DNA of 64,000 nt from Sipunculus nudus. Its lineage: Eukaryota > Annelida > Sipuncula > Golfingiida > Sipunculidae. Made by a program: the position numbers and the translations under genes. Shown piece after piece: positions 10,120 to 64,000 of the stretch. The number at the start of each line of letters is the position of its first letter. Position 1 is the first letter of the stretch. Under the pieces are notes generated by a model, which was given only the letters and a program-made list of their open reading frames with translations, had not been told where the DNA came from and did no database searches. The stretch covers positions 68,136,118 through 68,200,117 of the forward strand of contig CM049317.1 of NCBI GenBank assembly GCA_026874595.1. The letters run 5' to 3'.

Positions 10120-10640
10120 ATTTGTTATTTGTAATATTGTAATATTGTGGTCATGAAGCGACTAAACTGTAATGGTCTTGTAGTGACTCTCATTGTAATG
10201 GTCATGCAATGAATCTCATTGTTATGGTCATGTAGTAACTCTTAATCGTAATGATCATGTAACGACTCTTATTGTAATATTCCGGTCATGTTGGGACTTT
10301 AATTGTAATGGTCATATAGTGACTCTAAATGTAATGGTCATGTAGTGACTCTTATAATTATGATCTTGTAGTGCGCTAATTGTTATAATTGTTATGGTCT
10401 TGAAGCCACTCTTATTGTAATGGTCATATAGTGACTCAAATTGTAATGGTTATGTTGCGACTTTAATTTTAATCGTCATATAGTGACACTTATTGTATTG
10501 GTCATATAGTGACTTATTGTAATGGTCATACAGTATCTCTTATTGTATTGGTCATATAGTGACTTAAATTGTAATGATCATTTAATGACTCTAGTTTTAT
10601 GGTCATATAGTGACTTTAATCTTAACTTTCATAACGTTAA
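10120..10640 (+). repeat. Diverged 25-bp minisatellite
   Basis: About 20 units of 25 bp with the core TAATGGTCATGTAGTGACTC. Units differ by substitutions and by 1-7 bp length changes, indicating an old array. Confidence 0.85.
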
Positions 10641-16739: not shown

Positions 16740-17640
16740 GCCTGCCTCTCTTCTAAATGCCTGAACGTCCTGTGTCACTCTCTTCTACAAAACCTGTTAC
16801 TCCTGCGTCACTCTTTTCTACAATCCCTGTTACTTCTGTGTCACTCTCTTCTACAACACCTGTTACTCCTGCGTCACTCTCTTCTACAATCCCTGTCACT
16901 TCTGTGCCACTATCTTCTACAATACCTGTTACTCCTGCGTCACTCTCTTCTGCAATCCCTGTTACTTCTGCGTCACTCTCTTCTGCAATCCCTGTTACTT
17001 CTGCGTCACTAACTTCTACAACACCTGTTACTCCTGCCTCACTCTCTTCTACAAACCCTGTTACTCCTGTGTCACTATCTTCTTTAATATCTGTTACACT
17101 TCCGTCACTTTCTTCTACAATCCCTGTTACTTCTGTGTCACTTTCTTCTACAACACCTGTTTAATACTCCTGCGTCACTCTCTTCTACAATCCCTGTTAC
17201 TTCTGTGTCACTCTCTTCTACAACACCTGTTACTCCTGCGTCACTCTCTTCTACAACACCTGTTACTCCTACGTCACTCTCTTCTGCAATCCCTGTTACT
17301 TCTGTGTCACTTTCTTCTACAACACCTGTTTAATACTCCTGCGTCACTCTCTTCTACAATCCCTGTTACTTCTGTGTCACTCTCTTCTACAACACCTGTT
17401 ACTCCTGCGTCACTCTCTTCTACAACACCTGTTTAATACTCCTGCGTCACTCTCTTCTACAATCCCTGTTACTTCTGTGTCACTCTCTGCTACAACACCT
17501 GTTACTCCTGTGTCACTATCTTCTATAATATGTTACACTTCCGTCACGCTATTCTAGAATACCTGTTTCTCCTCCGTCAATCATCTTCTGTAATACCTGT
17601 TACTCCTGTCATTCACTTCAACAACAGCTGTTACCTTTAC
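16740..17640 (+). repeat. 33-bp minisatellite with Ser/Thr/Pro-rich reading frame
   Basis: About 27 units of 33 bp, usually alternating in two subtypes to give a 66-bp pattern. One subtype contains ACTCCTGCGTCACTCTCTTC, the other ACTTCTGTGTCACTCTCTTC. Since 33 is divisible by three, a + frame from ATG at 16,757 stays open for 135 codons as an 11-residue repeat (TPASLSSTIPV / TSVSLSSTTPV), mucin-like in composition. It stops at 17,162 because of a 4-bp TAAT insertion, which recurs at about 17,330 and 17,433. No signal peptide, splice site or flanking coding sequence is evident, so I treat it as a minisatellite; a decayed mucin-like exon is the alternative. Confidence 0.85.
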
Positions 17641-18686: not shown

Positions 18687-18819
18687 TAAAACGGTTTTAG
18701 AGAGATAAAAACGGTTTTAGAGAGATAAAAACGGTTTTAGAGAGATAAAAACGGTTTTAGAGATATAAAAACGGTTTTAGAGAGATAAAAACGGTTTTAG
18801 AGAGATAAAAACGGTTTCC
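18687..18819 (+). repeat. 20-bp tandem repeat
   Basis: Six full copies and a partial seventh of ACGGTTTTAGAGAGATAAAA. They are nearly identical; one unit has AGATAT for AGAGAT. High identity suggests recent expansion. Confidence 0.95.
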
Positions 18820-29335: not shown

Positions 29336-30195
29336 GCGCGGAGGTAGAAAGATAACACAAACATGTAATTTTCCATCCACAAAATGAGCATGTGTCGTTT
29401 TTTATCATTGCTAGTTAATAAACACGTTTGTAAAACAATAGTCCATTCCATCGATGGATGCTCATTGTTAATTGGATATATTGTCAGATCAGATCAAAAG
29501 TAAGCGACAAAGAAGGAATGAGGCACAGGCTAAATTAACACGAATTAAACCAAAGCCATATTTTCAAAGCCATATTTTCAATCTATTTCAGAAATGCAAT
29601 AAAATCAAAGTCTGGCAAATCATATTTTTCACAACATCTCAGTCTCACAGTTGAAGGTCACTGGTCACATGCAAAAAATCTACGTTTTAAAGCTCCTGAT
29701 AAATTCCTCAGTGTCATAAATATTCTGAAAACATAACCAGCAAATTGGAAAAGGCAGCTCGTGCGGAGGCTATATATGTTACTTGGCCTAATACCCAAAA
29801 AAAATTAAGCTGTACAATTCGATTCTTGTCCTGAACTTGTTTTCAGCTGATATAATTGGCTTTTATTCATTTATCCCTCTGTTGTAGCAGTGTATGTATG
29901 TGATGATATATGAGTTGTAGAAAATAATCACCGAAGTTCAATGGGCATCAACTGATGGTGCGATTTAAATTATAATCTGAAACTGGGCTTCATATGCTAA
30001 TGTGCTTCCCGGATAGTGTATGGAACTACAAATCCAAAAAAGGCAAATTTAAAAATACGTTATATCAAAAGTTACCTTGCAACCACCATGTGTGGTTTAG
30101 AAGATATCTCCCAGTGTGTTTTAATAATTAAAACCTAGTTAAATTGTACACGTTTGCCGGACGAGATGTTTAAGCTGAGAGTACCATTTCGCTGT
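29333..30195. other. Unassigned DNA
   Basis: No gene recognised. A small tandem duplication of AAAGCCATATTTTC lies near 29,550-29,580. Confidence 0.4.
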
Positions 30196-30585
30196 GGTCA
30201 TAACATACAGTTCGGGTTGCTGCAGTCATTACATAAGGTGCGGGTTGCTGTGGTCATTACATAAGGTGCGGGTTGCTGTGGTCATTACATTCGGTGCGGG
30301 TTGCTGTGGTCAATACATACGATGCGGGTTGCTGTGACTATAACATAAGGTGCGGGTTGCTGCGGTCATAACATGGGGGGAGGGGGGGGGGGCGGTGCGG
30401 GTTGCTGCGGTCATTAAATACGGTGCGGGTTGCTGCGGTCATAACATACGGTGCGGGTTGCTGCGGTCATAACATACGGTGCGGGTTGCTATGGTCATAT
30501 CATACGGTGCGGGTTGCTGCGGTCATAACATGGGGGGGGGGGGGGGACGGTGCGGGTTGCTGCGGTCATTAAATACGGTGCGGGA
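30196..30585 (+). repeat. 28-bp G-rich minisatellite
   Basis: About 14 units of 28 bp with the core GGTGCGGGTTGCTGCGGTCA followed by TAACATAC. Two units carry poly-G expansions (about 30,375-30,393 and 30,532-30,546) in the same place within the unit, about 157 bp apart. This indicates that the expanded unit was copied along with its neighbours. Confidence 0.92.
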
Positions 30586-30849: not shown

Positions 30850-31660
30850 TCCCTGTCAGATACTTTGGAGCTAACGCTTAATACAGGGCGTCTCTATCCG
30901 ATATGACGCTATTGACGTTAAGAGGGGGTATCTCTCGTACACCCAAGTTGCTGTTCCATGGCACAGGGCGTCTCGATCTGACATGACGCCGTTGACGCCA
31001 AGAGGGGCATCTCTCGTACACGACTCTGCTGACGCCTCAAAAAGGACGTCTCTATCCGATATGACGCTATTGACGCCAAGAGGGGGTATCTCTCGTACAC
31101 GACGCTACTGACACCTAATAAAGGGCGTCTCTATCCGATATGACGCTATTTACGCCAAGAGGGGGTATCTCTCGTACACCCAAGTTGCTGTTCCATGGCA
31201 CAGGGCGTCTCTATCCGATATGACGCCGTTGACGCCAAGAGGGGCATCTCTCGTACACGACTCTGCTGACGCCTAATAAAGGACGTCTCTGTTCGATATG
31301 ACGCTATTTACGCCAAGGGGGATATCTCTCGTACACCAAAGTTGCTGTTCCATGGCACAGGGCGTCTCTATCTGACATGACGCCGTTGACGCCAAGAGGG
31401 GCATCTCTCGTACACGACTCCGCTGACGCCTAATAAAGGACGTCCCTATCCGACATGACGCTATTGACGCCAAGGGGGGTATCTCTCGTACACGACGCTA
31501 CTGACACCTAATAAAGGGCGTCTCTATCCGATATGACCCCGTTGACGCCAAGAGGGGTATCTCTCGTACACGACGCTACAGACATTTAACAAAGGGCGTC
31601 TCTTTCCGATATGACGCCTAGAGGAAGGAATTCTCTGGGCGAAATAACGCCACTGACACC
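30850..31660 (+). repeat. 79-bp minisatellite built from two ~40-bp subunits
   Basis: About ten 79-bp units. Each has half A (GGGCGTCTCTATCCGATATG, then ACGCTATTGACGCCAAGAG) and half B (GGGTATCTCTCGTACACGAC, then GCTACTGACACCTAATAAA). The halves align with each other, so the 79-mer is a dimer. A variant B half containing GTTGCTGTTCCATGGCACAG occurs at about 30,945, 31,182 and 31,340, spaced 237 and 157 bp apart (three and two units). Short minus-strand frames through it are not genes. Confidence 0.9.
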
Positions 31661-32334: not shown

Positions 32335-32860
32335 TGCCCAGTGGAAGGGTACAGCTATTCTTTACAATGCCTTTGATACCTGGGGGGAGGCATCACTTTC
32401 CGTGACAAAGCCTTTGACGCCTAGTCATAGTGGAACGGTAACTCTATGCGTTGCAGTTAGTTCCTTTAACGCCGGAGGCAGGGAACCACTTTCAGGCACA
32501 ATGTCTTTGACGCCTTCTGGAAGGGTACCGCTATCCGGCACAATGCCTTTGACGCCTTCTGGAAGGGTACCGCTATCCGGCACAATGCCTTTGACGCCTC
32601 CTGGAAGGGTACCGCTATCCGGCACAATGCCATTGACGCCTTCTGGAAGGGAACCGCTATCCGGCACAATGCCTTTGACGCCTTCTGGAAGGGTACCGCT
32701 ATCCGGCACAAAGCCTTCGACGCCTTCTGGAAGGGTACCGCTATCCGGCACAATGCCTTCGACGCCTTCTTGAAGGGTACCGCTATCCAGCACAAGGCCT
32801 TTGATGCCTAGTGAGAATCCACCGCTGTCCGGTAGAATGCCAGTGATGCCCAGTGGAAGG
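32335..32860 (+). repeat. 42-bp minisatellite
   Basis: About 12 units of 42 bp. The central units begin CCTTTGACGCCTTCTGGAAG and continue GGTACCGCTATCCGGCACAA TG. The outer units are more diverged, as expected of array edges. The length is a multiple of three, so three frames stay open across it, including a minus-strand frame of 14-residue repeats (GTLPEGVKGIVPDS). Unit differences mostly change that residue sequence (K/E/N, T/S, E/G, P/Q), which argues against selection on a protein. It resembles the 79-bp array in sharing CTATCCG and TTGACGCC at matching spacing. Confidence 0.9.
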
Positions 32861-52322: not shown

Positions 52323-52980
52323 TGCACCCATGGCGGACCACATGCACCCGGACGTCACCTGTCACCCAAGATTCTCGCCCTATTACCAAACACATGCATA
52401 AACCGGGTGGCACCTGCTTTTGTTTGTATACATTTACACCACCACGTCACCGATATCGCGCCGCAATAAAGTTCCCCGAGTTTTACGACAATTAAAAACA
52501 AACAGACAATCATATTCTTTATAACCGTTATATTTGAAATGAATGTTGTCAATGTATGAACTATATTTGCTCCGTTGACTAAATTATTGTTATTTTCAAT
52601 TGCCAGGCGATATGGCTCGCGTTAGACTGGAAAAAGTGCTGTGCGCACATTGATTGGCAAAAGATCCATCCATTCATAAACGAGATCTCGCGTGTCGAGA
52701 ATGGCCTGATTTGTGGGTAAAGGGTTTCGAAACTATAGATGCCTGGCTCTTAACCCAAATAAGGGCATAGACCATTTGCCACAAATTTGATACAAACGGC
52801 GAATCTCGAAAATTGGCTGTCGTAAGTGATGTGGCAGCGTCATAAGCAATATGGGTGGGCCTTGCTTTTGCATCCATTGTTTCTAAAAGGGTAATGAGCA
52901 CCTCATAACAGCAAAGTCGTGACATAGGGTAGTTTTACAAAAGGGATGGTCGTAAAAAAACGGGGGTGGGGGGGGGGGGT
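52323..52980. other. Unassigned DNA bordering the satellite
   Basis: A minus-strand ATG-initiated frame at 52,674-52,925 (83 codons, begins MSRLCCYEVLITLLETMDAK) has protein-like composition but no recognised family. A poly-G/GGGGTGGG tract at 52,962-52,979 marks the boundary with the 34-bp array. Confidence 0.4.
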
Positions 52981-55900
52981 CGTGTTAGAGAAGTGATCGT
53001 GACAGAGGGTTGGTCATGATAGAGGATTGTGTTTGTTAGAGGTGTGATCATGATAGAGGAATGGCTTTGTAAGAGAGGTGATCATGATAGAGGATTCGGT
53101 TTGTTAGAAGGGTGATAATGATAGAGGATTGGGTTTGTAAGAGAGGTGATCATGATAGAAGACTGAGTGTGTTAGAGAGGTGATCATGATAGAGGATTGG
53201 GTGTGTTAGAGGGGTGATAATGATAGAGAATAGGGTGTGTTAGAGGGGTGATCACGGTAGAGGATTTTGTTTGTTAGAGGGGTGATCACGATAGAGGATT
53301 GGGTTTGTTAGAGAGGTTGTCTTGATAGAGGATTGGGTTTGTAAGAGAGATGATCATGATAGAGGATTGGGTTTGTAAGAGAGGTGATAATGATAGAGGA
53401 TTGGGTGTGTTAGAGGGATGATCATGATAGAGGATTGGGTTTGTTAGATGGGTGATAATGATAGCGAATTGGGTTTGTTAGAGAGGTTGTCATGATAGAG
53501 GATTGGGTTTGTAAGAGAGGTGATCATGATAGAGGATTGGGTTTGTTAGAGGGCTGATCACGATAGAGGATTGGGTTTGTCAGAGAGGTTGTCATGATAG
53601 AGGATTGGGTTTGTCAGAGAGGTGATCATGATAGAGGATTGGGTTTGTAAGAGAGGTGATAATGATAGAGGATTGGGTGTGTTAGAGGGATGATCATGAT
53701 AGAGGATTGGGTTTGTCAGAGAGGTTGTCATGATAGAGGATTGGGTCTGTAAGAGAGGTGATCATGATAGAGGATTGGGTTTGTTAGAGGGGTGATCACG
53801 ATAGAGGATTGGGTTTGTTAGAGAGGTTGTCATGATAGAGGATTGGGTTTGTAAGAGAGGTGATCATGATAAAGGATTGGGTTTGTAAGAGAGGTGATAA
53901 TGATAGAGGATTGGGTGTGATAGAGGGATGATCATGATAGAGGATTGGGTTTGTTAGATGGGTGATAATGATAGAGAATTGGGTTTGTTAGAGAGGTTGT
54001 CATGATAGAGGATTGGGTTTGTAAGAGAGGTAATCATGATAAAGGATTGGGTGTGTTAGAGGGATGATCATGATAGAGGATTGGGTTTGTTAGAGGGGTG
54101 ATAATGATAGAGAATTGGGTTTGTTAGAGAGGTTGTCATGATAGAGGATTGGGTTTGTAAGAGAGGTGATCATGATAGAGGATTGGGTTTGTTAGAGGGG
54201 TGATCACGATAGAGGATTGGGTTTGTTAGAGAGGTTGTCATGATAGAGGACTGGGTTTGTAAGAGAGGTGATCATGATAGAGGATTGGGTTTGTAAGAGC
54301 GGTGATAATGATAGAGGATTGGGTGTGTTAGAGGGATGATCATGATAGAGGATTGGGTTTGTTAGAGAGGTGATCATGATAGAGGATTAGGTGTGTTAGA
54401 AGGGTGTTCATGATCGAGGATTGGGTTTGTTAGAGTGGAGGTCACGATGGAGGATTGGGTTTGTTAGAGAGGTGATCATGATAGAGGAATGGGTTTGTTA
54501 GAGGAGTGATAATTATAGAGGATTGGGTTTATTAGAGAGGTGATCATGATAGAGGATTGGATGTGTTAGAGGGTTGATCATGATAGAGAATTGGGTTTGT
54601 TAGATGGGTGATAATGATAGCGAATTTGGTTTGTTAGAGAGGTTGTCATGATAGAGGATTGGGTTTGTAAGAGAGGTGATCATGATAGAGGATTGGGTTT
54701 GTTAGAGGGGTGATCACGATAGAGGATTGGGTTTGTTAGAGAGGTTGTCATGATAGAGGATTGGGTTTATAAGAGAGGTGATCATGATAGAGGATTGGGT
54801 TTGTAAGTGAGGTGATAATGATAGAGGATTGGGTGTGTCAGAGGGATGATCATGACAGAGGATTGGGTTTGTCAGATGGGTGATAATGATAGAGAATAGG
54901 GTTTGTTAGAGAGGTGATCATGATAGAGGATTGGGATTGTAAGAGAGGTGTTAATGATAGAGGATTGGGTGTGTTACAGGGATGATCATGATAGAGGATT
55001 GGGTTTGACAGATGGGTGATTATGATAGAGAATTGGGTTTGTTAGAGAGGTTGTCATGATAGAGGATTGGGTTTGTAAGAGAGGTGATCATGATAGAGGA
55101 TTGGGTTTGTTAGAGGAGTGATAATTATAGAGGATTGGGTTTGTTAGAGAGGTGATCATGATAGAGGATTGGATGTGTGAGAGGGATGATCATGATAGAG
55201 GATTGGGTTTGTTAGAGGGGTGATCACGATAGAGGATTGGGTTTGTTAGAGAGGTTGTCATGATAGAGGATTGGGTTTGTAAGAGAGGTGATCATGATAG
55301 AGGATTGGGTTTGTAAGAGAGGTGATAATGATAGAGGATTAGGTGTGTTAGAGGGATGGTCATGATAGAGGATTGCGTTTGTCAGATGGGTGATAATGAT
55401 AGTGAATAGGGTTTGTTAGAGAGGTTGTCATGATAGAGGATTGGGTTTGTAAGAGAGGTGATAATGATAGAGGATTGGGGGTGTTAGTGGGATGATCATG
55501 ATAGAGGATTGGGTTTGTTAGAGGGGTGATAATGATAGAGAACTTGGTTTGTTAGAGAGGTTGTCATGATACAGGATTGGGTTTGTAAGAGAGGTGATCA
55601 TGATAGAGAATTGGGTTTGTTAGAGGAGTGATAATTATAAAGGATTGGGTTTGTTAGAGAGGTGATCATGATAGAGGATTGGGTTTGAAAGAGAGGTAAT
55701 CATGATAGAGGATTTGGGTTTGTAAGTGAGGTGATAATGATATAGAATTGGGTGTGTTAGAGGGATGATCATGATAGAGGATTGGGTTTGTCAGATGGGT
55801 GATAATGATAGAGAATAGGGTTTGTTAGAGAGGTGATCATGATAGAGGATTGGGATTGTAAGAGAGGTGATAATGATAGAGGATTGGGTGTGTTACATGG

Positions 55901-56990
55901 ATGATCATGATATAGGACTGGGTTTGATAGATGGGTGATAATGATAGAGAATAGGGTTTGTTAGAGATGTTGTCATGATAGAGGATTGGGTTTGTAAGAG
56001 AGGTTATCATGATAGAGGTTTGGGTGTGTTAGAAGGATGATCATGATAGAGGATTGGGTTTGTTAGAGGGGTGATAATGATAGAGAATTGGGTTTGTTAG
56101 AGAGGTTGTCATGATAGAGAGTTGGGTTTGTAAGAGAGGTGATCATGACAGATGTTTGGGTTTGTTAGGGGAGTGATAATTATAGAGGATTTGATTTGTT
56201 AGAGAGGTGATCATGATAGAGGATTGGATGTGTTAGAGGGATGATCGAGATAGAGGATTGGGTTTGTTAGATGGGTGATCATGATAGAGGATTGGGTGTG
56301 TAATAGGGATGATCATGATAGAGGATTGGGTTTGTTAGAGGGGTGATAATGATAGAGAATAGTGTTTGTTAGAGAGGTTGTCATGATAGAGGATTGGGTT
56401 TGTAAGAAAAATGATCATGATAGAGGATTGGGTTTGTAAAAGAGGTGATAGTGATAGAGGATTGGGTGTGTTAGATGGGTGATCACGATAGAGGATTGGG
56501 TTGGTTAGAGAGGTTGTCATGATAGAGGATTGGGTTTGTAAGAGAGGTGATCATGATAGAGGATATGGTTTGTTAGATGGGTGATCACGATAGAGGATTG
56601 GGTTGGTTAGAGAGGTCGTCATGATAGAGGATTGGGTTTGTAAGAGAGGTGATCATGATAGAGGATTGGGTTTGTAAGAGAGGTGATCATGAAAGAGGAC
56701 TGGGTGTGTTAGAGGGATGATCATGATAGAGGATTGGGTTTGTTAGATGAGTGATAATGATAGAGAATTGGGTTTGTTAGAGAGGTTGTCATAATAGAGG
56801 ATTGGGTTTGTAAGAGAGGTGATCATGATAGAGGATTTGGTTTGTAAGAGAGGTGATCATGATAGAGGATTGGGTGTGTTAGAGGGATGATCATGATAGA
56901 GGATTGGGTTTGTTAGAGAGGTGATCATGATAGAGGATTAGGCGTGTTAGAAGGGAGTTCATGATCGAGGATTGGGTTTGTTAGAGAGGA

Positions 56991-57840
56991 GGTCACATTG
57001 GAGGATTGGGTTTGTTAGACAGGTGATCATGATAGAGGAATGGGTTTGTTAGAGGAGTGATCATGACAGATAATTGGTTTTGTTAGATGGGTGATAATGA
57101 TAGCGATTTGGGTCTGTTAGAGAGGTTGTCATGATAGAGGATTGGGTTTGTAAGATAGGTGATCATGATAAAGGATTGAGTTTGTTAGAGGGGTGATCAC
57201 GATAGATGATTGGGTTTGTTAGAGAGGTTGTCATGATAGAAGATTGGGTTAGTAAAAGAGGTGATCATGATAGAGGATTGGGTTTGTAAGTGAGGTGATA
57301 ATGATAGAGGATTGGGTGTGTTAGAGGGATGATCATGATAGAGGATTGGGTTTGTCAGATGGTTGATAATGATAGAGAATAGTGTTTGTTAGAGAGGTGA
57401 TCATGATAGAGGATTGGGATTGTAAGAGAGGTGATAATGATAGAGGATTGGGTGTGTTAGAGGGATGATCATGATAGAGGATTGGGTTTGACAGATGGAT
57501 GATAATGATAGAGAATAGGGTTTGTTAGAGAGGTTGTCATGATAGAGGATTGGGTTTGTAAGAGAGGTTATCATGATAGAGGATTGGGTGTGTTAGAGGG
57601 ATGATCATGATAGAGGATTGGGTTTGTTAGAGGGGTGATAATGATAGAGAATTAGGTTTGTTAGAGAGGTTGTCATGATAGAGGATTGGGTTTGTAAGAG
57701 AGGTGATCATGATAGAGGATTGGGTTTGTTAGAGGAGTGATAATTATAGAGGATTGGGTTTGTTAGAGAGGTGATCATGATAGAGGATTGGATGTGTTAG
57801 AGTGATGATCATGATAGAGGATTGGGTTTGTTAGAGAGGA
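56991..57840 (+). repeat. Higher-order repeat, 25 units (850 bp)
   Basis: Begins at the rare variant GGTCACATTGGAGG and runs exactly 25 x 34 bp to the next such variant at 57,841. Shared private variants include GACAGATAATTG, GATAGATGATTGG and GGTTAGTAAAAGAGG. Confidence 0.85.
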
Positions 57841-58790
57841 GGTCACGTTGGAGGATTGGGTTTGTTAGACAGGTGATCATGATAGAGGAATGGGTTTGTT
57901 AGAGGAGTGATCATGACAGATAATTGGGTTTGTTAGATGGGTGATAATGATAGCGAATTGGGTCTGTTAGAGAGGTTGTCATGATAGAGGATTGGGTTTG
58001 TAAGAGAGGTGATCATGATAAAGGATTGAGTTTGTTAGAGGGGTGATCACGATAGATGATTGGGTTTGTTAGAGAGGTTGTCATGATAGAGGATTGGGTT
58101 AGTAAAAGAGGTGATCATGATAGAGGATTGGGTTTGTAAGAGAGGTGATCACGATAGATGATTGGGTTTGTTAGAGAGGTTGTCATGATAGAGGATTGGG
58201 TTAGTAAAAGAGGTGATCATGATAGAGGATTGGGTTTGTAAGTGAGGTGATAATGATAGAGGATTGGGTGTGTTAGAGGGATGATCATGATAGAGGATTG
58301 GGTTTGTCAGATGGTTGATAATGATAGAGAATAGTGTTTGTTAGAGAGGTGATCATGATGGAGGATTGGGATTGTAAGAGAGGTGATAATGATAGAGGAT
58401 TGGGTGTGTTAGAGGGATGATCATGATAGAGGATTGGGTTTGACAGATGGGTGATAATGATAGAGAATAGGGTTTGTTAGAGAGGTTGTCATGATAGAGG
58501 ATTGGGTTTGTAAGAGAGATTATCATGATAGAGGATTGGGTGTGTTAGAGGGATGATCATGATAGAGGATTGGGTTTGTTAGAGGGGTGATAATGATAGA
58601 GAATTAGGTTTGTTAGAGAGGTTGTCATGATAGAGGATTGGGTTTGTAAGAGAGGTGATCATGATAGAGGATTGGGTTTGTTAGAGGTGATAATTATAGA
58701 GGATTGGGTTTGTTAGAGAGGTGATCATGATAGAGGATTGGATGTGTTAGAGTGATGATCATGATAGAGGATTGGGTTTGTTAGAGAGGA
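57841..58790 (+). repeat. Higher-order repeat, 28 units minus 2 bp (950 bp)
   Basis: The same block as 56,991-57,840 with a local three-unit (102-bp) duplication of the segment carrying GATAGATGATTGG and GGTTAGTAAAAGAGG (about 58,048-58,235). It also has a 2-bp deletion at about 58,686 (TTAGAGGTGATAATT for TTAGAGGAGTGATAATT). Confidence 0.85.
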
Positions 58791-59630
58791 GGTCACGTTG
58801 GAGGATTGGGTTTGTTAGACAGGTGATCATGATAGAGGAATGGGTTTGTTAGAGGAGTGATCATGACAGATAATTGGGTTTGTTAGATGGGTGATAATGA
58901 TAGCGAATTGGGTCTGTTAGAGAGGTTGTCATGATAGAGGATTGGGTTTGTAAGAGAGGTGATCATGATAAAGGATTGAGTTTGTTAGAGGGGTGATCAC
59001 GATAGATGATTGGGTTTGTTAGAGAGGTTGTCATGATAGAGGATTGGGTTAGTAAAAGAGGTGATCATGATAGAGGATTGGGTTTGTAAGTGAGGTGATA
59101 ATGATAGAGGATTGGGTGTGTTAGAGGGATGATCATGATAGAGGATTGGGTTTGTCAGATGGTTGATAATGATAGAGAATAGTGTTTGTTAGAGAGGTGA
59201 TCATGATAGAGGATTGGGATTGTAAGAGAGGTGATAATGATAGAGGATTGGGTGTGTTAGAGGGATGATCATGATAGAGGATTGGGTCTGACAGATGGGT
59301 GATAATGATAGAGAATAGGGTTTGTTAGAGAGGTTGTCATGATAGAGGATTGGGTTTGTAAGAGAGGTTATCATGATAGAGGATTGGGTGTGTTAGAGGG
59401 ATGATCATGATAGAGGATTAGGTTTGTTAGAGGGGTGATAATGATAGAGAATTAGGTTTGTTAGAGAGGTTGTCATGATAGAGGATTGGGTTTGTACGAG
59501 AGGTGATCATGATAGAGGATTGGGTTTGTTAGAGGAGTGATAATTATAGAGGATTGGGTTTGTTAGAGAGGTGATCATGATAGAGGATTGGATGAGTTAG
59601 AGTGATGATCATGATAGTGGATTGGGTTTG
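58791..59630 (+). repeat. Higher-order repeat, third copy (partial)
   Basis: Starts with the same GGTCACGTTGGAGG marker. It follows the 25-unit version (no three-unit insertion) and leaves the pattern near 59,630, after GATGAGTTAGAGTG. Confidence 0.8.
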
Positions 59631-60565
59631 TTAGATGGGTGATAATGATAGTGAATTGGGTTTGTTATAGAGGTGATCATGATAGAGGATTGGGTTTGTA
59701 AGAGAGCTGATCATGATAGAGGATTCGGTTCGTTAGAGGGGTGATCACGATATAGGATTAGGTTTGTTAGAGAGGTTGTCATGATAGAGGATTGGGTTTG
59801 TAAGAGAGGTGATCATGATAGAGGATTGGGTTTGTAAGAGAGGTGATAATGATAGAGGATTGGGTGTGTTAGAGGGATGATCATGATAGAGGATTGGGTT
59901 TGTCAGATGGTTGATAATGATAGAGAATAGTGTTTGTTAGAGAGGTTATCATGATAGAGGATTGGGATTGTAAGAGAGGTGATAATGATAGAGGATTGGG
60001 TGTGTTAGAGGGATGATCATGATAGAGGATTGGGTCTGACAGATGGGTGATAATGATAGAGAATAGGGTTTGTTAGAGAGGTTGTCATGATAGAGGATTG
60101 GGTTTGTAAGAGAGGTTATCATGATAGAGGATTGGGTGTGTTAGAGGGATGATCATGATAGAGGATTAGGTTTGTTAGAGGGGTGATAATGATAGAGAAT
60201 TAGGTTTGTTAGAGAGGTTGTCATGATAGAGGATTGGGTTTGTAAGAGAGGTGATCATGATAGAGGATTGGGTTTGTTAGAGGAGTGATAATTATAGAGG
60301 ATTGGGTTTGTTAGAGAGGTGATCATGATAGAGGATTGGATGAGTTAGAGTGATGATCATGATAGTGGATTGGGTTTGTTAGATGGGTGATAATGATAGT
60401 GAATTGGGTTTGTTATAGAGGTGATCATGATAGAGGATTGGGTTTGTAAGAGAGCTGATCATGATAGAGGATTCGGTTCGTTAGAGGGGTGATCACGATA
60501 TAGGATTAGGTTTGTTAGAGAGGTTGTCATGATAGAGGATTGGGTTTGTAAGAGAGGTGATCATG
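59150..60565 (+). repeat. 748-bp (22-unit) tandem duplication inside the array
   Basis: Rare markers repeat at exactly 748 bp: GGGTCTGACAG (59,284 and 60,032), GATGAGTTAGAGTG (59,591 and 60,339) and AGAGAGCTGATC with GATTCGGTTCG (59,701 and 60,449). Offsets are 22 x 34 bp. Confidence 0.82.
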
Positions 60566-63500
60566 ATAGAGGATTTGGTTTGTAAGAGAGGTGATAATGA
60601 TAGAGGATTATGTGTGTTAGAGGGATGGTCATGATAGAGGATTGGGTTTGTCAGAAGGGTGATAATGATAGAGAATAGGGTTTGTTAGAGAGGTTGTCAT
60701 GAGAGAGGATTGGGTTTGTAAGAGAGGTGATCAGGATAGAGGATTGGGTTTGTTAGAGGAGTGATAATTATAGAGGATTGGGTTTGTTAGATGGGTGATC
60801 ATGATAGAGGATTGGGTTTGTTAGAGGGCTGATAATGATAGAGAACTGGGTTTGTTAGAGAGGTTGTCATGATACAGGATTGGGTTTGTAAGAGAGGTGA
60901 TCATGATAGAGGATTGGGTTTGTTAGAGGAGAGATAATTATAGAGGATTGGGTTTGTTAGATAGGTGATCACGAAAGAGGATTGGGTTTGTAAGAGAGGT
61001 GATCATGATAGAGGATTTGGGTTTGTAAGTGAGGTGATAATGATAGAGGATTGGGTGTGTTAGAGGGATGATCATGATAGAGGATTGGGTTTGTCAGATG
61101 GGTGATAATGATAGAGAATAGGGTTTGTTAGAGAGGCGATCATGATAGAGGATTGGGTTTGTAAGAGAGGTGATCTTGATAGAGGATTGGATGTGTTAGA
61201 GGGATGATCATGACAGAGGATTGGGTTTGTTAGATGGGTGATCATGATAGAGGATTGGGTGTGTTAGAGGGATGATCATGATAGAGGATTGGGTTTGTTA
61301 GACGGGTGATAATGATAGAGAATTAGGTTTGTTAGAGAGGTTGTCATGATAGAGGATTGGGTTTGGAAGAGAGGTGATCATGATAGAGGATTGGGTTTGT
61401 TAGAGGAGTGATAATTATAGAGGATTGGGTTTGTTAGAGAGGTGATCATGATAGAGGATTGGATGTGTTAGAGTGATGATCATGATAGAGGATTGGGTTT
61501 GTTAGATGGGTGATAATGATAGTGAATTGGGTTTGTTATAGAGGTGATCATGATAGAGGATTGGGTTTGTAAGAGAGGTGATCATGATAGAGGATTGGGT
61601 TCGTTAGAGGGGTGATCACGATAGAGGATTGGGTTTGTTAGAGAGGTTGTCATGATAGAGGATTCGGTTTGTAAGAGAGGTGATCATGATAGAGGATTGG
61701 GTTTGTAAGAGAGGTGATAATGATAGAGGATTATGTGTGTTAGAGGGATGGTCATGATAGAGGATTGGGTTTGTCAGAAGGGTGATAATGACAGAGAATA
61801 GGGTTTGTTAGAGGAGTGATAATTATAGAGGATTGGGTTTGTTAGAGAGGTGATCATGATAGAGGATTGGATGTGTTAGAGTGATGATCAAGATAGAGGA
61901 TTGGGTTTGTTAGATGGGTGATCATGATAGAGGAATGGGTTTGTTAGAGGGCTGATAATGATAGAGAACTGGGTTTGTTAGAGAGGTTGTCATGATACAG
62001 GATTGGGTTTGTAAGAGAGGTGATCATGATAGAGGATTGGGTTTGTTAGAGGAGTGATAATTATAGAGGATTGGGTTTGTTAGAGAGGTGATCATGATAG
62101 AGGATTGGGTTTGTTAGAGAGGTGATCATGATAGAGGATTGGGTTTGTAAGAGAGGTGATCATGATAGAGGATTTGGGTTTGTAAGTGAGGTGATAATGA
62201 TAGAGGATTGGGTGTGTTAGAGGGATGATCATGATAGAGGATTGGGTTTGTCAGATGGGTGATAATGATAGAGAATAGGGTTTGTTAGAGAGGTGAACAT
62301 GATATAGGATTGGGATTGTAAGAGAGGTGATAATGATAGAGGATTAGGTGTGTTAGATGGATGATCATGATATAGGATTGGGTTTGACAGATGGGTGATA
62401 ATGATAGAGAAAAGGGTTTGTTAGAGATGTTGTCATGATAGAGCATTGGGTTTGTAAGAGAGGTTATCATGATAGAGGTTTGGGTGTGTTAGAGGGATGA
62501 TCATGATAAAGGATTGGGTTTGTTAGAGGGGTGATAATGATAGAGAACTGGGTTTGTTAGAGAGGTTGTCATGATACAGGATTGGGTTTGTAAGAGAGGT
62601 AATCATGATAGAGGATTGGGTTTGTTAGAGGAGTGATAATTATAGAGGATTAGGTTTGTTAGAGAGGTGATCATGATAGAGGATTAGGTTTGTTAGATGG
62701 GTGATAATTATAGAGGATTAGGTTTGTTAGAGAGGTGATCATGATAGAGGATTAGGTTTGTTAGATGGGTGATAATGATAGAGAATTGGGTTTGTTAGAG
62801 AGGTTGTCATGATAGAGGATTGGGTTTGTAAGAGGGGTGATCATGACAGAGGATTGGGTTTGTAAGAGAGGTGATCATGATAGAGGATTGGATGTGTTAG
62901 AGGGATGATCATGTTAGAGGATTTGGTTTGTTAGATGGGTGATCATGATAGAGGATTGGGTGTGTTAGAGGGATGATCATGATAGAGGATTGGCTTTGTT
63001 AGAGGGGTGATCATAATAGAGGATTGGGTTTGTTAGAGGGGTGATCATGATAGAGGATTGGGTTTGTTAGAGAGGTAGTCATGATAGAGGATTGGGTTTG
63101 TAAGAAAAGTGATCATGATAGAGGATTGGGTGTGTTAGAGGGATGATCATGAATGAGGATTGGGTTTGTTAGAGAGGTGATAATGATAGAGGATATGGTT
63201 TGTTAGAGGGGTGATCACGATAGAGGATTGGGTTTATTAGAGAGGTCGTCAATATAGAGGATTGGGTTTGTAAGAGAGGTGATCATGATAGAGGATTGGG
63301 TTTGTAAGAGAGGTGATCATGATAGAGGATTGGGTGTGTTAGACGGATGATCATGATAGAGGATTGGGTTTGTTAGATGGTTGATAATGATAGAGAATTG
63401 GGTTTGTTAGAGAGGTTGTCATAATAGAGGATTGGGTTTGTTAGAGGGGTGATCATGATAGAGGATTGGGTTTGTTAGAGGGGTGATCACGATAGAGGAT

Positions 63501-64000
63501 AAGTGTGTTAGAGGGATGGTCATGATAGAGGATTGGGTTTGTCAGAAGGGTGATAATGATAGAGAATTCGGTTTGTAAAAGAGGTGATCATGATAGAGGA
63601 TTGGGTTTGTTAGAGAGGTGATCATGATAGAGGATTGGGTGTGTTAGAGGGATAATCATGATAGAGGATTGGGTTTGTTAGACAGGTGATCATGATAGAG
63701 GATTAGGCGTGTTAGAAGGGTGTTCATGATCGAGGATTGGGTTTGTTAGAGAGGAGGTCACGATGGAGGATAGGGTTTGTTAGACAGGTGATCATGATAG
63801 AGGAATGGGTTTGTTAGATGGGTGATAATGATAGCGAATTGGGTCTGTTAGAGAGGTTGTCATGATAGAGGATTGGGTTTGTAAGAGAGGTGATCATGAT
63901 AGAGGATTGGGTTTGTTAGAGGGGTGATCACGATAGATGATTGGGTTTGTTAGAGAGGTTGTCATGATAGAGGATTAGGTTTGTAAGAGAGGTGATAATG

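Follow-up and report, generated by a model that had tools for sequence, protein, structure and literature searches.

How does a tandem array of short units come to carry its variants in a fixed order, and where did its unit come from? These questions are raised by the right end of the window, the stretch of 64,000 bases analysed here (C12:68136118-68200117, from a genome of 1.43 Gb in 153 contigs). Over 11 kb of 34-bp units had been described there from the letters alone, and TRF confirms them: its 34-bp array starts at 53004 and reaches the window edge, with 323.4 copies at 83% matches and 0% indels, and is preceded by degenerate first units at 52981-53003. The array continues beyond the window. 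On examining the next 80 kb we found a further 44.9 kb of it, to C12:68245020, so that the part within the window is the first fifth of a single-strand array of 55.9 kb (C12:68189121-68245020), referred to here as the main array.

52981..64000, + strand: 34-bp tandem array, left fifth, from TRF, unit splitting, extension and 17-bp homology; consensus TTGTTAGAGAGGTGATC followed by ATGATAGAGGATTGGGT

Splitting gave 324 units in the window part (318 exactly 34 bp, 167 distinct) and 1648 in the full array (1569 exactly 34 bp, 364 distinct sequences). Unit lengths are 32-36 bp in 1647 of the 1648, the exception being the cut final unit, and none is 17 or 51 bp. Because lengths stay within this range throughout, the cut last unit aside, exchanges between units stayed in register.

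The variants do not follow one another at random. We defined subtypes by 10 diagnostic (variable) columns, and since the full array contains 125 core subtypes, the "at least five" of the sequence-only reading holds as an understatement. The mutual information of adjacent pairs of subtypes (bigrams) is 2.996 bits in the window compared to 1.997 (sd 0.042) after shuffling, and 3.115 bits in the full array compared to 1.148 (sd 0.018). Shuffling the same units never reached the observed information (0 of 1000 shuffles in the window and 0 of 1000 in the full array), and the non-random order claimed earlier is therefore upheld. Preferences of single subtypes can be strong: in the full array every one of the 40 occurrences of TAGGGGGACG is preceded by TTGAGGTGCG, and TTGAGGTGCG comes after TTTGGGGAAA in 53 of 74 cases. 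Exactly repeated runs extend to 11 units in the window, where 200 shuffles gave 2-3, and to 94 units in the full array, where 20 shuffles gave 3-4.

By searching for diagonals of at least 12 units and at least 95% identity, we identified 559 segments in the array and 0 in each of 10 shuffles. Of the array units, 95% lie inside at least one such segment; those outside are the first 8, the last 30 and four short inner stretches. The longest segment has 203 units at lag 341 (99.4% identity), and the next longest have 198 units at lag 189 (99.4%) and 179 units at lag 73 (99.0%). Block periods of 35, 38, 73, 108, 189, 268 and 341 units are nested within one another (35 + 38 = 73, 73 + 35 = 108, 268 + 73 = 341), and the recurrence becomes directly visible when the subtype string is written at 73 units per line. 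Two examples of smaller blocks are found within the window.

57080..59187, + strand: block-copy example 1; 34 units from 57080 occur again from 58032, 96.4% identical (lag 28, units 120-153 against 148-181, the copies overlapping)
58880..60783, + strand: block-copy example 2; 34 units from 58880 occur again from 59628, 97.0% identical (lag 22)

The stretch from 59628 is seen once more from 63811, running past the window edge (lag 123, 96.5%). Blocks of 35-203 units are thus about 96-99% identical whereas neighbouring units are 82.6% identical, which is the relation that marks higher-order repeats (HORs). Instead of a regular head-to-tail HOR with one fixed period, we find several nested periods and irregular copies. 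Large block copies might be produced in assembly, if both haplotypes of a heterozygous individual, or repeat reads joined wrongly, had been placed one after the other, and the identity of the largest copies (99.0-99.4%) in the one assembly used is indeed within plausible heterozygosity. However, the nested periods, together with small blocks that are more diverged (96-97%), call for many events rather than one haplotype doubling, the array is without any N inside, and the window part alone shows the variant order. Given these nested periods and diverged blocks, assembly error is unlikely to explain the whole block structure, and we regard an artefactual source of the large copies as improbable.

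Neighbouring units are less alike than those of shuffled arrays. Their identity is 0.836 in the window compared to 0.848 shuffled, below all 1000 shuffles (lowest 0.838), and 0.826 in the full array compared to 0.839, below all 300 (lowest 0.836); exactly identical neighbours are depleted (6 compared to 27 expected). We compared these values with a toy simulation in which tandem duplication, deletion and mutation took place at random, run 8 times per setting under one parameter set, in which the mean pair identity was 0.70-0.76 and so lower than the 0.84 observed. Blocks averaging 1, 2 and 5 units produced a strong excess of neighbour identity (+0.26, +0.17 and +0.05), mean blocks of 10 and 20 about none (+0.002 and -0.005), and mean blocks of 40 and 80 a deficit (-0.013 and -0.010) with exact-neighbour ratios of 0.42 and 0.26. 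The observed array has a deficit of -0.0127 and a ratio of 0.22. Individual runs with blocks averaging 10 and 20 units overlap the deficit of the array, but the mean exact ratios at these settings (2.4 and 1.3) misfit. Under the toy model, growth by steps of 1-5 units is thus excluded, and blocks of tens of units (about 40 or more) give the best fit. Together, the 559 segments, the unit order and the simulation support the earlier suggestion that the array evolved by copying blocks of several units. A nucleosome-length reading of small lag-4 and lag-5 values (136-170 bp) was set aside, as block copies inflate such lags.

Inspection of the unit itself revealed a feature that had escaped the sequence-only reading. 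The 34-mer TTGTTAGAGAGGTGATC-ATGATAGAGGATTGGGT is composed of two diverged 17-mers, and its letters suggest that this 17-bp dimer is related to a minisatellite borne by MITE-like elements. Of three 17-mers of that family the best, ATGTTAGAGGGGTGGTC, matches the 34-mer in a fixed register at 26 of 34 positions (0 of 20000 composition shuffles) and the two others at 24 and 22 (reached by 1 and 4 of 20000), where the shuffles keep composition only and a short G-rich unit is easy to match. Allowing up to 3 mismatches, the 34-mer has 930 forward and 0 reverse matches genome-wide, all on C12 among the matches listed. A search of the 152-kb neighbourhood also returned 930 forward and 0 reverse, and because the genome-wide and local counts are equal the 34-mer occupies one locus at the mismatch level searched. 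The 17-mers of the elements and of the array are probably homologous, but the 34-mer itself matches at one locus only; with a 34-bp unit (the class range being about 10-100 bp) at one locus, the array resembles a single-locus VNTR or minisatellite.

These observations also bear on whether the array could be a centromeric or otherwise functional satellite under selection, for example for chromatin or protein binding. Its HORs resemble those of centromeric satellites and the array strand has a strong bias to G over C (GC skew about 0.84), both of which would suit such a role. Against it are the single 56-kb locus in so large a genome, the lack of any Rfam match (at gathering score over the whole window, and at E up to 1 in 52501-56500) and the weak secondary structure of the one 136-base stretch folded (z -2.45). 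The centromeric reading is disfavoured because the 34-mer is at a single locus, and for the pericentromeric site proposed earlier we found no support, the array being located at 68.2 of 78.55 Mb on C12. Selection for a function of this sort seems to us very remote, and the array is presumably neutral.

Arrays related to the main array were found by DNA search on C3, C6, C7, C8, C12 (74.14 Mb) and C14. A pattern of two consecutive 17-mers has 322 + 243 matches (reversed control, 0), and the seven neighbourhoods retrieved in this way comprise six with 17-bp arrays and one, on C12 at 74 Mb, with a 34-bp array. Many of the array flanks have a layout in common, consisting of 5' TACAGTGAAATCTCGCTAACACGACCACCTGCGGGACCAGCCAAAGTGGTC, the 17-mers, a short unique stretch and a terminal ...CAGGCGAGATTTCACTGTA, and 17-mer arrays on many chromosomes sit inside this element. 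At 15 loci chosen for their 17-mers, and with ends called at set thresholds, we found the 5' end at 11, a near-complete 3' end at 5 and at least one end at 13; the C11 and C13 loci gave no element end at the thresholds used. The 5' consensus CAGTGAAATCTCGC (11 copies) and the 3' consensus GCGAGATTTCACTG (5 copies) form short terminal inverted repeats, and TA is present at the start of 9 of 11 5' ends and at the stop of 4 of 5 3' ends, the queries themselves having held TA. A 28-base pattern from the inner 5' end, with up to 3 mismatches allowed, matches 410 times genome-wide, and its reverse 0 times. Terminal TA of this kind would point to a Tc1/mariner-like, perhaps pogo-like, MITE.

Longer forms of the element occur at C10:8403093 (L043) and C15:26984251 (L044), with a related inner 5' end and partly different outermost bases. 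Each has an extended middle part that is unrelated, carries only about two 17-mers next to its 5' end and is 0.9 kb or more in length, both sequences ending before the 3' terminus. These forms may be similar to the starting state. In the C10 copy, a stretch closely similar to that around AAAGTGGTCGTGTTAGCGGG is found again near the right end in direct orientation. Among the matches listed, seven 5' ends with the one-letter variant GACCAACC are found on one strand within 1.8 Mb (C16:49.70-51.49 Mb) and one further such end on C6; the C16 cluster suggests a long-range segmental repeat.

At odds of roughly two in three, we propose that the main array is a neutral single-locus satellite, its unit being derived from the 17-mer of a MITE-like element and its growth being due to multi-unit block duplication. 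A 17-bp unit of the kind found in tandem inside the MITE-like DNA transposon would have diverged to give a two-unit 34-bp repeat, and this dimer would have become the unit of exchange. The array would then have reached 1648 units as blocks spanning tens to hundreds of units (about 1-12 kb) were duplicated repeatedly and in register, whether by unequal crossing-over or by template jumps in replication repair, and the ancestral MITE copy would since have been stripped of its ends. The edges of the array were inspected for such ends. Directly to its left lies a run of G.

52962..52979, + strand: G run (5 + 12 G around one T), next to the left end of the array, from the sequence

On the right, outside the window, the array is followed after about 35 bases by a 12-G run (C12:68245055-68245066). 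Long G (or C) runs are also seen at 30375-30392 and 30532-30546, within a 28-bp minisatellite that is unrelated to the array, and towards the end of the C15 element copy (L044 16-43).

Just past the right end of the array there are pieces of 17-mer, for example AGTGGTCATGTTACTG. When element ends were aligned with the 500-bp flanks (8 pairings), three fell in the shuffle tail (1, 0 and 2 of 300), all of them in the right flank; the left 500-bp flank showed no element-end similarity when aligned pairwise and compared with 300 shuffles. Neither alignment nor profile search detected a MITE terminus in the roughly 3 kb to each side of the array. Profile matches near the array lie only in its 17-mers or at its right edge (best E 0.011), and transposon ends at the array were rejected as candidates, both methods having given matches of the 17-mer type only. 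The end remnants expected of a MITE-derived satellite of the miDNA4 type are thus not found at the array. Because no transposon end was found beside it, descent of the main array from a MITE is put as likely and not more strongly, and with no element terminus within about 3 kb we class it among single-locus satellites with irregular HORs, its MITE derivation being likely rather than proven.

The missing ends are also what one would see if an ordinary hypervariable minisatellite had arisen independently at this locus, with the likeness to the MITE 17-mer reflecting convergence of short G-rich repeats, or if a MITE had captured an existing minisatellite. The window is also rich in other minisatellites, with units of 20-78 bp.

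10148-10620, 16746-17634, 18688-18817, 30191-30584, 30885-31617 and 32480-32809: other minisatellites of the window, from TRF

Such a local origin does not readily account for the match of 26 of 34 positions to the family 17-mer in a fixed register, with its lesser counterparts of 24 and 22, nor for the 17-mer pieces at the right edge of the array or the residence of 17-mer arrays inside the element on many chromosomes. We consider it rather unlikely.

Derivation from a MITE can be considered alongside the other arrays of the family. The number of 17-mers per locus ranges from about 5 to 283 across the 15 loci, and the C3 element, which has both ends, contains about 200. We tested neighbour likeness in 14 of the 15 arrays (C9, with 5 units, was left out). 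In 7 of 14 (C2, C4, C7a, C8, C13, C15 and C16) adjacent 17-mers were more alike than shuffled, to a degree reached by no more than 8 of 1000 shuffles; the other 7 showed no clear difference from shuffled. Patches of different subtypes within an array could be another cause of this likeness. Only C3 alternates among the 14, with lag 2 exceeding lag 1 by 0.016 (0 of 1000 shuffles); its lag-1 identity does not fall clearly under the shuffled level, 143 of 1000 shuffles being as low, and a separate splitting gave 0.928 for lag 2, 0.912 for lag 1 and 0.918 shuffled. Dimer alternation as a general property of element arrays was accordingly rejected, being seen in 1 of 14.

A second 34-bp dimer array is found 6 Mb from the main array, at C12:74143485-74170756 (L019-L022). 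It is of the same 17-bp family, with consensus TTTATAGAGGGGTGGTC followed by CTGATAGAGGCGTGTTC, and comprises 790 units in 26.5 kb, 711 of them of 34 bp. It also has block periods (lag 171, 0.932), but the likeness of neighbouring units lies slightly above that of shuffled ones (0.900 compared to 0.898, sd 0.001). No MITE end was found in the 300 bases on each side. The arrays fit a path from 17-mer to dimer to blocks, in which we infer the links between the stages. It is possible, though we advance this tentatively, that the whole path from transposon to satellite is kept in one genome, as elements with few 17-mers, elements with hundreds, one with 17-mers in transition to a 34-bp dimer, and two dimer arrays, of 27 and 56 kb, that have become free of the element. 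The mode of growth would then shift from a slippage-like mode (neighbours more alike, as in half of the tested element arrays) to kilobase-sized blocks (neighbours less alike, as in the largest array). If the descent is true, these loci form a compact series from nature in which to follow the change from internal repeat of a small transposon to satellite, and to ask whether longer arrays shift from single-unit slippage to kilobase-block recombination.

The main array is real, well structured and of a kind already known, since both VNTRs with irregular HORs and satellites borne by MITEs have been described. The human single-locus VNTR at Xp22.33, as presented in PMC2588610, spans 18 kb with a 61-bp unit and has irregular HORs (1.6 and 2.5 kb) that are arranged in a complex way; the same source describes kilobase-scale HORs in human GAATG and HsatII arrays. 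A short unit, a long array and irregular HORs are common to the Xp22.33 VNTR, as portrayed there, and the main array, whose 35-, 38- and 73-unit periods correspond to about 1.19, 1.29 and 2.48 kb. Relative to that description, the main array is larger (56 kb), has more nested periods and has a unit that is kin to the internal repeat of a DNA transposon. The higher-order structure thought unusual on first inspection is thus present, in the form of nested periods, but is less unusual than was implied, given the irregular HORs reported for human VNTRs (PMC2588610). In the account given in PMC11050224, human chromosome 15 alpha-satellite has cascading HORs, with which the main array has in common the reuse of monomer types in the higher-order unit and nested subfragments; by that account the alpha-satellite has a 171-bp centromeric monomer and mostly canonical HOR copies, whereas the main array is irregular.

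For the origin of the unit, the nearest parallel in description is miDNA4, a Tc1/mariner MITE of Xenopus tropicalis that contains a satellite. Tandem units borne by MITEs are proposed in the accounts of this element to expand into satellite arrays with loss of the element ends (PMC9659126, PMC12628747). A MITE bearing one to many tandem units is common to both systems as there described; here, by contrast, the unit is 17 bp with a 34-bp dimer, and the large array is without detectable ends. Satellites from non-autonomous DNA transposons are also described for Xenopus laevis (Xstir), Drosophila virilis (Tetris) and bivalves (HindIII and BIV160), in which elements and units differ from those here and the likeness is one of description. 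A text search of one literature library with six pieces of 16-19 letters from the repeats and the element found no paper there that contains them. The main array itself can be read as a record of its block copying, and it makes a good marker for a single locus.

Outside the array, a Pfam scan of 10 of the 48 open frames of at least 95 aa in 1-52900 gave no match for nine and, for one, a match far below the curated cut-off (E 0.071, 13.7 bits compared to 27). The plasmid collection gave no match to the window, as expected for so large a genome. A 2,500-base N run (C12:68133618-68136117), either a gap or a withheld stretch, stops exactly at the left edge of the window, far from the array. To the right of the array, the open frames listed for two of the four stretches include 6 of at least 100 aa, and within the window the 33-bp and 42-bp minisatellites are open in more than one frame.
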